Below, piece after piece: positions 23,284 to 26,959 of a stretch of DNA of 58,525 bases. Where the stretch lies: positions 1-58,525 of the forward strand of contig JAFTQM010000087.1 in the NCBI GenBank assembly GCA_017462755.1, read 5' to 3'. The notes beneath the pieces are model-generated. The model made no database searches. It was not told where the DNA came from and saw only the letters and a program-made list of their open reading frames with translations. Each line of letters opens with the position of its first letter. Within the stretch, counting starts at the first letter, position 1. Both the position numbers and the translations under genes were made by a program. This stretch comes from Lachnospiraceae bacterium. Its GTDB lineage: Bacteria; Bacillota; Clostridia; Lachnospirales; Lachnospiraceae.

Positions 23284-25395
23284 TTATTCACCATAATTCT
23301 GGCTTACATATTCTCTGATTGCTGCATTGTCCTCCGGCATACGGCAACCAACTACATATTCGCCCTCATTGTTCGAGCTGCGGATGATACAACCGGTCAG
23401 CGGCTCGCCTGCAAGCACAGCAAAGTCATCTACCTCAACAACCACATCCTTGCCCTGGGCATTTTCAAACAACTCCTCACGTACTGCAAACGCAAAACCA
23501 TTCGCACTGATATTTACCATCTGCGCAAAATACTGATCCATTGCTCCTGCAATCTTTACCATACAGGTGTTGGCAATCGGCATTCTCGGATACTTTCTCC
23601 GATTGAATACCTGCGGATTTGACTTGATATGGAAGCAATATTCTCCTTTTTCACCCTTCTTCGTCTTGCAAATCTCAAGGTCTTCCCAGCTATACAATAC
23701 ATTGTCTACCACGATGCGAAGCTGGCAACCCGGCAGCCTGTCTCTATCTGCCAAGATATCCGTAGCATTCAGCGTCACATAGACATTCTCCTCTACGCAA
23801 TCAACCACCTCGCCGATGTATTCGTTCTTCTTGTTACCATCACCCTTGAGCATAACCGATATCTTCATGCCTACTCTGACATCCTTTACACCCATAAAAC
23901 CGCCTACACCAAGCTCTTCCATCAGGTGACCTACAACCGTCTCGATATTAACCGCACTCTTTGCACTCTCTTCGTACTTGCTGAGCATGGTCTTCGTGGT
24001 AGCTTCCGCTTCGGTAATGCTCTCCGTCATGACATCCATAATCTCGCATACCTGCTTCATGTTATCTACCAGTGTCTGATTCGAAGTCTCTACTTCCTTA
24101 ACCGCACTGTCTACTACCCGAATATTTGCACCAAGACTGGTCGCATCGTTCGTAATATCCGTAACACTCTTGCTTACATTGGATACCTTGTCGATATTTA
24201 TCTGAATCAACTGAACCGTTTCTCCGATGGATTCCATCATCTTTTCAGAGGTTTCCTCAAGATTCGCCAACGCCGCCATAATTCTGTTGGAGGAATTCTG
24301 CGTTCCGCTGCTCAGCTCACGGATCTCATTTGCAACAACCGCAAAACCACGTCCGGCTTCTCCTGCTCTTGCTGCCTCAATCGAAGCATTCAGCGCAAGA
24401 AGATTGGTCTTTGAAGTAATTCCCTCAATCGTGCTGGTTTCCTTCTTTACATTTTCAAACTCTTCCTTAAAGTTCTGCAGAATCTTCTCAACATCTGCCG
24501 AAAGCACTGCCATCTTGTTGGTTGTATCTACTACCTCACCAAGCTCGTTCGAGCTGGTATTGGCATGCTCTACCGATGCACCGATAAGCGACACTACCTG
24601 TTCCATCAAATCTGCAACATTCTTCACCTGTGTATCAATAACCTGCGTCATATCCATTGAGGACATCGTCTTATCGCTAAGCACCTCATTGTTATTCGAA
24701 AGCTTACGCATATCATTTACGACATTGTTCGCGCCCTCTTTGTTCTCATCAGCAAGCTCTCTTACTACCGTAACACCGTCTACTACCGCATTACTTGCAG
24801 TCTTAACCTTCTCTACCGTCTGTACCACGCGCTCCAAATTGCCGGTAATCGAAGCCGTCAGAGCACCATCCGACTCTATCAAATGACGAATCGCCATCAA
24901 GGTACACGCATAACAGCACAAAACAATCGCAAACTGAAGTGCGCAATCCTCACTGGTAACAAAATCCATCATACCCTTGACACGACCCTTGTATATGTTA
25001 CTCGAAAAGAGCACGAACATCGTCGCCCACATCATAATCTTAATCAGCTTCAAATCCTTATAAAGAATCAGAATCGATACCAGTGGCAGAATAAATACAT
25101 AGGATACCGTATCCATGGAAGTCCATGCAATTACCGCAAAGAAGGTAAGATATCCGAGACCTAGCATCCATTGGTATCCGTTCCATGCCGTTCCTTTGAC
25201 CTTTAACATAATACCTGCAGCAATATATTCGATCCATCCGATTACAGAAAACATGATAAACCAATTTTGACCTACTTCGCCCTTCGCCATCTTCGCTGCA
25301 TAGAATATCGTAACGATAAACATCAAACAAACCCAGGTCGTACCTGCTCTTCGATTCGCCTTTGCCCTAAAGTAACCTTCGTCGTAATTCTGCAT
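23284..25395 (-). CDS. Membrane chemoreceptor fused to a C-terminal PilZ (c-di-GMP binding) domain
   Basis: The 703-residue protein starts with about six hydrophobic segments (residues 20-170) with no extracytoplasmic sensor loop. A methyl-accepting signalling domain follows, whose hairpin tip ([20 protein letters not shown], about residues 330-365) binds CheA/CheW. From about residue 500 there is a YcgR-like beta-barrel region, then a PilZ domain with RRKYPR near residue 597 and NISANGFAF near 625, matching the RxxxR and (D/N)xSxxG c-di-GMP motifs. The protein may therefore link cyclic-di-GMP or membrane state to motility. It is monocistronic, with an extended -10 promoter at 25442-25450. 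Confidence 0.9.
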
Positions 25396-25502: not shown

Positions 25503-26345
25503 TCATTTTCTTTTTCCCAATACCACCCAGAAATTGTCCTCTCGTTCCAATCTTTTCGCTACCGCTTCCACCAGCTCTGTCACAACTGCATCCGGCTTCT
25601 GCCGCAGCGCGCTTTCCAAATATTCAATCACCCGCTCCAAATAAATCATTGAGTTGCCACGTTCCAAAAAACCTCGTAACACCTCGGTCAGTAAACTGTA
25701 GCTTATTTTCTCCGGTACAACTCCCTGAATCAGCGCCGGGCACCAGATTCCCAGATTATCCACCAAACTCTTTACCAAATCCGGATGCAGAAGCTCTGCA
25801 TACCGTCTGCGCACCGCATCTCCCAGACAGGATATCATATGTGAAAGTGTTGTTTCTCCCACATCTTTCAGCTCCTCCGAATACAAAACATTCTGATATG
25901 CCAAAATCATAAATTCCTTTGGTCTTAACTGCAGCTGGTCGCGCAGGCGTACCACCGGAAGCAAAATCCCCTCCGTAGACAATCGTTCCCGCAACATCTC
26001 TATCTGTTCCACATACGGCGCATTCAAAAAGACCTGTACCAGCTCCTCGCCAAAAACAATTTCGATTGGCACAAGACCGCCCCTAAGATTCTTCCATATC
26101 TCTTCCCAGCCCCGATTCTCCTCTGCTGCCTTCTGCTCCGCCTGCCTGCCAATTAAATAATCTGCACTAACCTCCAGCACATTACAAACCTCCGCCAGCA
26201 TCGAAAGATCCGGCAGGCTCCGTCCGCACTCCCATTTCGAAAGCGCCTGCGGTGTAACTCCAAGTCTACGCGCCAGCTCCTCCTGCGTCATATTCTTATT
26301 CTGCCTGCACTGCGATATCCTCGTACCAAATTGCTTTTCATTCAT
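25503..26345 (-). CDS. HTH (Xre-type) regulator fused to an FlhA cytoplasmic-domain-like region
   Basis: The 280-residue protein begins with an Xre-type helix-turn-helix (residues 8-65; MTQEELARRLGVTPQALSKW). From about residue 87 it resembles the soluble C-terminal domain of FlhA/FHIPEP, the flagellar export gate. LPVVRLRDQLQLRPKEFMIL matches the FlhA PPVxIRDNxxLxPxxYRIL segment. LSHMISCLGDAVRRRYAELL, LVDNLGIWCPAL and LLTEVLRGFL match the following helices. The membrane part of FlhA is absent. The protein may be a transcription factor that reads export-chaperone or flagellar state, but this is inference. The ATG follows GGAGGAGAGCG. Two palindromes lie upstream (26388-26399 and 26402-26426). 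Confidence 0.8.
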   Translation of the reverse strand: MNEKQFGTRISQCRQNKNMTQEELARRLGVTPQALSKWECGRSLPDLSMLAEVCNVLEVSADYLIGRQAEQKAAEENRGWEEIWKNLRGGLVPIEIVFGEELVQVFLNAPYVEQIEMLRERLSTEGILLPVVRLRDQLQLRPKEFMILAYQNVLYSEELKDVGETTLSHMISCLGDAVRRRYAELLHPDLVKSLVDNLGIWCPALIQGVVPEKISYSLLTEVLRGFLERGNSMIYLERVIEYLESALRQKPDAVVTELVEAVAKRLEREDNFWVVLGKRK

Positions 26346-26387
26346 GCGCTCTCCTCCATCCATACACTCATCCGCCTACCTGTTCTT

Positions 26388-26426: not shown

Positions 26427-26491
26427 ACAGCCTAGGATAAGTATATCAAAGCCGCGCTTTCCTGTAAATCAACCATCCGTTTCCACTCTTA

Positions 26492-26959
26492 TCAACCGCT
26501 CGCCAGCTCCATGTATCTGCGATAGGTGCGAAAGCCCTGCGACTCATAGAACTTCCGTGCGCCCTCATTGAACTCCCACATATCCAGCTCAATGCGTTCA
26601 AAGCCCTTCTCCTTGGCATGCTCACGGATAAACGTCATCAGCTCCGTCCCCACGCCCTGTCTACGGCAATTCTCATCTACACAAAACTCGTTCACATGGT
26701 AAAATCTTCTCTCCAGACTATACGGAGTCATCGGCCGTTCAACATAATCTACACACGCAACACCACAAATCACATCGTCTCGCACTGCCACCAGCACATC
26801 CGAGTTTTCACCCTCCCACATTGCATCAATCAGCTCCTGCATCTCCCTACCAAATCCCGGTCGGAAAATATCCGGTCTGCCCTCGCAATGCACATCATTC
26901 ACTTGTCTGCGCAGCTCATTGACCCGCGCCAGCTCCTCTCTTCTCGCCAAACGTACCAT
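26492..26959 (-). CDS. GNAT-family N-acetyltransferase
   Basis: The 155-residue protein has the GNAT fold: an N-terminal helix pair, the acetyl-CoA pyrophosphate-binding motif RRQGVGTELM (motif A) preceded by FYHVNEFCVDENC, and the C-terminal EFNEGARKFYESQGF (motif B). It probably acetylates a small molecule or a protein amine. The substrate cannot be read. GGGAGATTAGT precedes the ATG. It stands alone, between the HTH-FlhA gene and a large palindromic element. Confidence 0.85.
   Translation of the reverse strand: MVRLARREELARVNELRRQVNDVHCEGRPDIFRPGFGREMQELIDAMWEGENSDVLVAVRDDVICGVACVDYVERPMTPYSLERRFYHVNEFCVDENCRRQGVGTELMTFIREHAKEKGFERIELDMWEFNEGARKFYESQGFRTYRRYMELASG

Follow-up and report, generated by a model that had tools for sequence, protein, structure and literature searches.

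A gene joining an HTH domain to part of FlhA

The DNA analysed here (the window, 58,525 bp) comes from a Lachnospiraceae genome that is 81.7% complete. On its reverse strand, at 25503..26345, lies a gene for a protein of 280 amino acids that joins a DNA-binding domain to part of the flagellar export-gate protein FlhA. The open reading frame begins with an ATG at 26345 and stops at 25503. A good ribosome-binding site, GGAGGAG (26351..26357, reverse strand), can be read just upstream of the ATG; frame, start and strand are as originally stated, and the gene is real. Residues 5-67 (26145..26333, reverse strand) form an Xre/HTH_3 DNA-binding domain, which Pfam places at residues 10-64 with an E-value of 4.3e-16, over the cut-off. 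This HTH resembles RstR, DicA and SinR, with the RstR-type similarity below the cut-off. The linker that follows (residues 68-90; 26076..26144, reverse strand) is delimited by the low-confidence stretches 68-80 and 84-88 of the structural model and by profile alignment, in which its end matches the residues directly before FlhA D1.

The rest of the protein comprises two FlhA-like parts, both encoded on the reverse strand. The D1-like part (residues 91-160; 25866..26075) carries the motifs FG..L and GILLPVVRLRD, and was identified by its alignment to FHIPEP profile positions 310-402, by a phmmer match to the FlhA structure 3mix and by hhalign. The D3-like part (residues 165-268; 25542..25853) carries the motif VPEKISY and was identified by FHIPEP positions 455-554 and by hhalign; D2 is missing before it and D4 after it. 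The borders of D1, D2, D3 and D4, in the fusion and in FlhA of the family, are assumed ones.

The same strand carries a GNAT acetyltransferase gene upstream of the fusion, ending at 26492. Directly downstream is a gene for an MCP-signalling protein with a C-terminal PilZ domain (23284-25395, reverse strand), and the gap before it contains a promoter-like site of its own. Neither neighbour was found to recur at the other 36 loci with relatives of the fusion. Close relatives have further neighbours in common; no conserved operon was found in the main clade, in which the widest common neighbour cluster covers 6 of 37 loci, and this counts against the regulator reading favoured below. A phage gene was considered and rejected, as the C-terminal part has no match in 50,697 phage records. 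A defence or toxin-antitoxin gene was likewise rejected: the PADLOC matches are confined to residues 3-78, the HTH region, and no partner gene is widely recurrent. The D1-like part weakly resembles the phage family phrog_12657 (2.2e-7), to which no function is assigned; that this family is FlhA-like would be a guess.

Derivation of the C-terminal part from the FlhA cytoplasmic domain

Pfam matches FHIPEP (PF00771) to the fusion at 1e-16 over two stretches of the 657-position profile, scoring 61 bits where the cut-off is 29.1. An FlhA-like domain behind an Xre HTH, as originally predicted from the translation, is thereby confirmed, and the similarity is found where it was expected, within residues 85-275. 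The NCBIfam model for FlhA also matches (1.7e-15, 56.4 bits), and because this score is far under the equivalog cut-off of 772 the fusion is not FlhA itself. We compared two profiles, one built from the C-terminal parts of 31 fusions (two from the sister clade described below) and one from 31 FlhA proteins of the window's family, and obtained a probability of 99.5 and an E-value of 4e-22. The aligned span corresponds to residues 337-553 of the 677-residue FlhA encoded in the same genome. Behind the D1 strands the alignment passes over about 48 residues of FlhA, at the position of D2, and the D4 region beyond residue 553 is unmatched.

Pfam, phmmer, hhalign and Foldseek all place D1 and D3 of the FlhA cytoplasmic part in the fusion. 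The N-terminal multi-pass membrane domain of FlhA is absent, as the HTH occupies that end of the protein and the match to the FlhA profile begins at position 310; D2, with its chaperone-binding cleft, and D4 are absent as well. Judged from these alignments, the membrane part of FlhA is, as had been proposed, replaced by the HTH, which is joined near the FlhA linker. The accompanying claim that the C-terminal residues align with the soluble domain of FlhA holds for the linker end, D1 and D3, but not for D2 and D4.

The AlphaFold2 model of the fusion has a mean pLDDT of 86.3 and a pTM of 0.62. When it was searched against the PDB with Foldseek, the best 50 of 63 rows (E <= 0.001) were all cytoplasmic domains of the FlhA/SctV family. 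The top match among the rows listed is Bacillus subtilis FlhA 3mix (3.6e-9, TM-score by query 0.54). The two superpose with an rmsd of 12.3 over 240 columns, and the fusion domains thus do not fit 3mix as a single rigid body. Chance similarity to FlhA is ruled out by the Pfam match, the profile alignment and the fold search.

In addition to the fusion, the genome encodes a complete, separate FlhA on contig C68, preceded by an ORF that we read as FlhB and followed by one read as FlhF. The fusion is therefore an extra gene. We calculated dN/dS for eight pairs drawn from 12 relatives, some pairs having a member in common and three having dS >1 in one part. The values are 0.09-0.19 over the whole gene; the FlhA-like part by itself gives 0.08-0.21. 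These values indicate that both halves of the fusion are kept by purifying selection. Together with the complete FlhA elsewhere, this selection rules out a broken or truncated FlhA gene.

Distribution and phylogeny of the fusion family

A contig scan combined with alignment of the C-terminal part identified 36 loci with relatives in 35 genomes, or 37 loci with the window. The scan favours close relatives because its search patterns were derived from sequences of the window's family. Among the 36 loci, 29 are titled Lachnospiraceae or carry the name of a genus that we place in that family (Butyrivibrio, Roseburia, Acetatifactor, Lachnoclostridium, Parablautia and Anaerosporobacter). The other seven are four titled Clostridiales or Clostridia bacterium, Bacterium D16-50, and bins titled Ruminococcus and Gastranaerophilales. 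Cultured carriers among the loci are Parablautia intestinalis D8-82 and Anaerosporobacter faecicola.

By reading, the HTH and both FlhA-like parts are present at 30 of the 37 loci. Five loci are without the HTH or a start and two have internal deletions, which counts against a regulator; among the five, L104 is split across two contigs and L123 begins at a contig end. L104 and L267, both from genome G681, represent one fusion gene that is broken within the HTH and lies on two contigs; an inserted element may be the cause. The same genome holds a second fusion gene, L120. In alignment A4, from which L093 and the damaged copies were excluded, every one of the 29 members, among them the window protein, matches HTH_3 as well as FHIPEP (E 0.01 or better), and none of the other 28 has an insert of D2 length.

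At least 15 of the 397 family genomes, counting the window's own, have matches that extend far past the HTH with E-values of 1e-22 or better, in a search that scored at most six candidates per genome. A sample of 295 genomes from across the order shows the fusion type, among the matches listed, only in the window's family; those listed outside it are weaker and mostly lie in frames of FlhA size. In a tree of 85 rows, which includes L046 and leaves out L093, L125, L127 and rows without an HTH or start, a branch of length 3.07 with support 100/100 separates 51 FlhA rows from all 34 fusions. The tree program warned of long branches, so the inner order is unsure, and a single origin of the fusion is consistent with the tree but not proven by it. 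As the relatives share common ancestry, the counts of fusions, operators and FlhA genes reported here are not independent.

A conserved operator-like site at the promoter of the fusion gene

The fusion gene has a consensus-like promoter, TTTACA and TATACT separated by 17 nt (26440..26468, reverse strand). Matches to the promoter consensus number 3, against 2.0 expected in shuffles; the relatives have a like arrangement, and the promoter is strikingly constant in their upstream regions. Overlapping the -35 box is an operator-like sequence, GTTGATAAGAGTGGAAACGGATGGTTGATTTACA (26463..26496, reverse strand), which is conserved in relatives. Its family form is GTTK-N10-MAAC-N5-GTTGTTTTACA, in which TTTACA is the -35 box and stands about 17 nt before a TATAAT-like box.

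We counted GTTGTTTTACA, which had first been spotted by eye in these very sequences, some of them near-copies, in 32 upstream regions of 250 bp. With at most one mismatch it occurs in 27 regions, against 0.2 expected from dinucleotide shuffles, and with at most two mismatches in 30, against 2.5. A weight matrix was built from 27 sites, with L093, L094 and L098 dropped as near-copies, and the fusion genes' own sites score 15.5-38.4 bits. In a first scan of loci, scores >20 occurred only at fusion genes or their remnants. Among these are six loci outside the training set, L034, L037, L041, L044, L122 and L126. A site of 33 bits in G681 (L267) proved to lie before the front part of the split fusion gene whose rear part is L104. 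The site at L005 is degenerate. Counting against the regulator reading, a clear operator is missing at L035 and L046, and L111 and L113 have more than two mismatches in the operator core.

Judged by its position and conservation, the operator looks like an autoregulatory site, of which there is essentially one per fusion gene. Given this conserved site in front of its own gene, the fusion protein is likely to be a transcription factor. In its HTH_3 domain and in the operator-like site over its own -35 box it is like Xre/HTH_3 regulators of the RstR, DicA and SinR type, but unlike them it has a C-terminal domain derived from a secretion gate. That domain belongs to no ligand-binding or dimerisation family known to us.

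Search for further target sites

A matrix scan of 351 kb around flagellar genes, from nine genomes with the fusion, revealed no outstanding operator. It gave 13 scores >8, whereas the number in each of five mononucleotide shuffles ranged over 3-18. The highest score for the full matrix was 13.1. Its 27-base part, taken by itself, scored up to 15.2, which falls in the lowest part of the range of the fusion genes' own sites. Searching 33 genomes for the full-length pattern with at most three mismatches returned 38 matches, 27 of which are by their coordinates at fusion genes or remnants. The 11 elsewhere show no excess over the reversed control (13 matches) and so do not point to a flagellar target gene; like the scan around flagellar genes, this counts against the regulator reading favoured below.

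The short pattern GTTK-N10-MAAC-N5-GTTG has 56 exact matches in the 33 genomes, 14 at fusion genes and 42 elsewhere, against 25 for the control. At 19 of 23 inspected loci of the latter kind the match falls within a mechanically called ORF of at least 60 amino acids. When the operator pattern is combined with a -10 box there are 117 matches, about 21 at fusion genes and 96 elsewhere against 75 for the control, a comparison limited by the fact that a promoter-like pattern may exceed its reversed form regardless. Both excesses are mild, and they leave room for additional, weaker targets.

The sole match at 20 bits away from the fusion genes lies upstream of flaG-fliD in two closely related genomes (20.3 and 17.0 bits; L268:1477-1510 and L269:1640-1673). 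We judged it a chance match and rejected flaG-fliD as a target, as by our reading it coincides in part with a T-run hairpin downstream of csrA and with a sigma-28-like -10 sequence, CCGATA.

Two further kinds of site were noted in these searches. The sequence GTTGTGTGCGTATACAACATACAGTTG at L178:1501 has similar copies in G689 (with one base pair variant) and G690 and is thus conserved in three related genomes; the copy inspected lies 143 bp before a lipoprotein-like gene, and it is likely the site of another regulator. Short-pattern sites at L180:1527 (reverse strand) and L183:1501 (forward strand) lie 110-180 bp before other Xre-type genes, inside mechanically called ORFs. These genes perhaps encode related regulators with similar sites.

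Co-occurrence with flagellar genes

True FlhA, either full or split at contig ends, is encoded in 33 of the 35 genomes with a fusion. One exception is G685, an entry identical to G276; the other, G702, holds the fusion as a remnant. FliP occurs in both, detected under G276 in the case of G685. Among the matches listed for the 397 family genomes, real FlhA occurs in 209; the raw count was 211, from which G178 and G276 were removed because they match through a fusion-type protein only. FlhA is present in 13 of 15 fusion genomes in this sample versus 196 of 382 others (one-sided Fisher p 0.006). In G178 (76% complete) there is neither a true FlhA nor a FliP match, and its fusion, L038, has three in-frame stops. 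Overall, relatives of the fusion occur in genomes with flagellar genes, and the co-occurrence is near-strict. The damaged copies L122, L124, L125 and L127, which sit in genomes having FlhA, count against a flagellar reading.

These observations bear on the possibility that the protein is an ordinary Xre autoregulator in which the domain taken from FlhA serves just for oligomerisation or for binding a small ligand, its flagellar function being gone. The damaged copies fit this reading, as do the distance of the fusions from FlhA in the tree, the loss of the chaperone platform, the scarcity of common neighbours in the main clade and the failure to find the operator convincingly at any flagellar promoter. 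The near-strict co-occurrence with flagellar genes speaks against it, however, and so does the decayed copy in G178, where FlhA and FliP matches are missing. We regard it as possible, though on balance doubtful.

A proposed flagellum-linked regulator

The reading that we favour, to which we would give about an even chance, is a self-repressing, flagellum-linked Xre-type regulator whose FlhA D1-D3 part senses or joins the export gate. The protein would be a stand-alone Xre-type regulator in flagellated, Lachnospiraceae-type bacteria. As the conserved site suggests, its HTH would bind the GTTG/CAAC half-sites over its own -35 box and so keep the protein scarce. By sequence and fold the C-terminal domain is a trimmed version of the FlhA cytoplasmic region, in which D1 and D3 are kept while the D2 chaperone platform and D4 are lost along with the membrane part. 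Its likeliest job would be self-association, contact with FlhA subunits or linkers, or both. Free export-gate subunits or assembled gates would then alter DNA binding, so that the regulator would report the state of flagellar export and might in turn control flagella.

Within the FlhA ring, the linker of one subunit binds to D1 and D3 of the next (PMC8166844), and Lys548 and Pro550 in D3 take part in D1-D3 contacts (PMC9431611). Self-association or contact with FlhA is favoured as the job of the C-terminal domain because D1 and D3 receive the neighbour's linker in FlhA, and because D1 and D3 are kept in the fusion while D2 is lost. A stronger form of the proposal, in which the regulator co-assembles with FlhA subunits or linkers and gate assembly directly sets its DNA binding, would amount to a checkpoint from the gate itself; we offer this tentatively.

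The same contacts would serve a different function if the D1-D3 module entered or capped FlhA rings in a dominant-negative manner and slowed export, with the HTH only limiting the level of the protein. The linker contacts of D1 and D3 in the ring (PMC8166844) are compatible with such an inhibitor, and high-scoring operators were found only at fusion genes. On the other hand, the contact with FlhA is hypothetical, and the mild excess of short-pattern sites elsewhere makes other targets possible. We consider this reading unlikely.

Known checkpoint regulators of flagellar export, such as FlgM and FliT-FlhDC, rely on substrates or chaperones that bind a transcription factor. If the self-repressing regulator outlined above works as proposed, it would resemble them in coupling export state to transcription, but would differ in that the piece of the gate and the DNA-binding domain belong to one protein. 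The fusion is like the cytoplasmic domain of FlhA/SctV export gates in its D1 and D3 motifs and fold. Unlike those gates, it has an HTH instead of a membrane domain, is without D4 and (in the main clade) D2, and occupies a separate, fast-evolving branch. To our knowledge, secretion-gate domains of this type have been described only within the export apparatus.

The suggestion that no functional description of such a protein existed agrees with our search of titles and abstract openings in the open-licence literature, in which none was found. Titles and abstract openings on flagellar regulation in Lachnospiraceae likewise revealed no such protein among the matches listed. The combination of HTH and FlhA domains may be listed in domain databases. 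We conclude that a conserved family of regulators built on an export-gate fragment is real and is undescribed within the literature searched. The family would show export machinery turned into a regulator, and would give experiments a way into the control of flagella in gut Lachnospiraceae.

A sister clade with a D2-like stretch

Four fusions, L006-L009, from genomes G002-G005 of the window's genus, form a sister clade with open frames of 302-341 amino acids. They align with FlhA through D2 (profile alignment, probability 98.9). Their EPVW/EPVY-like residues (EAVY in L008) face EPSY of their own FlhA, which we take to correspond to the Asp456/Phe459 dimple of Salmonella FlhA. In 4 of 4 cases a FliD_C-type gene of the same orientation precedes the fusion gene; it was recognised by Pfam in two cases and by similarity in the other two. 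At the same position as the main-clade operator, L006-L009 carry GTTG-N14-[CT][AG]AC-N5-GTTG. This pattern, shaped on the four sites themselves, has 19 matches in 1.63 Mb of loci, overlapping copies and the reverse strand counted, 11 of them in sister-clade loci and 8 elsewhere. A separate, overly strict sister-clade pattern gave one match in seven genomes.

The sister clade is relevant to the original suggestion of a transcription factor that senses flagellar export partners. The transcription-factor part of that suggestion is likely correct; sensing of chaperone-substrate complexes through the known FlhA site is not borne out for the window protein. PMC5932034 and PMC8166844 place the chaperone cleft of FlhA between D1 and D2, and the former reports Asp456 and Leu461 as essential to FliT-FliD binding. 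Since this site lies in the D1/D2 cleft and D2 is missing, such sensing is unlikely in the window protein, and other main-clade members are no better equipped. A sensor of export chaperones (FliS, FliT or FlgN) would gain from the D2-like stretch and the FliD_C-type neighbour of L006-L009, for which chaperone sensing is conceivable. As a reading of the family as a whole, it is decidedly unlikely, and the FliD_C association is diluted by the wide occurrence of such genes: FliD_C-like matches are present in 25 of 25 genomes searched, four of which have no fusion match among the matches listed.

The protein behind these matches is small (about 258 amino acids), with a FliD_C domain and the motif IRNGSYxKLLKAYYAKQ; some of the 25 matches may be FliD itself. 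Examples are at L270:6286-7065 (reverse strand), L271:4568-5338 (forward strand) and G000:C67:6094-6867, and the protein is possibly an unrecognised exported flagellar protein. In two Parablautia loci (L114 and L116), weak FliD_C-like relatives are found at a distance of 4-5 kb from the fusion gene.
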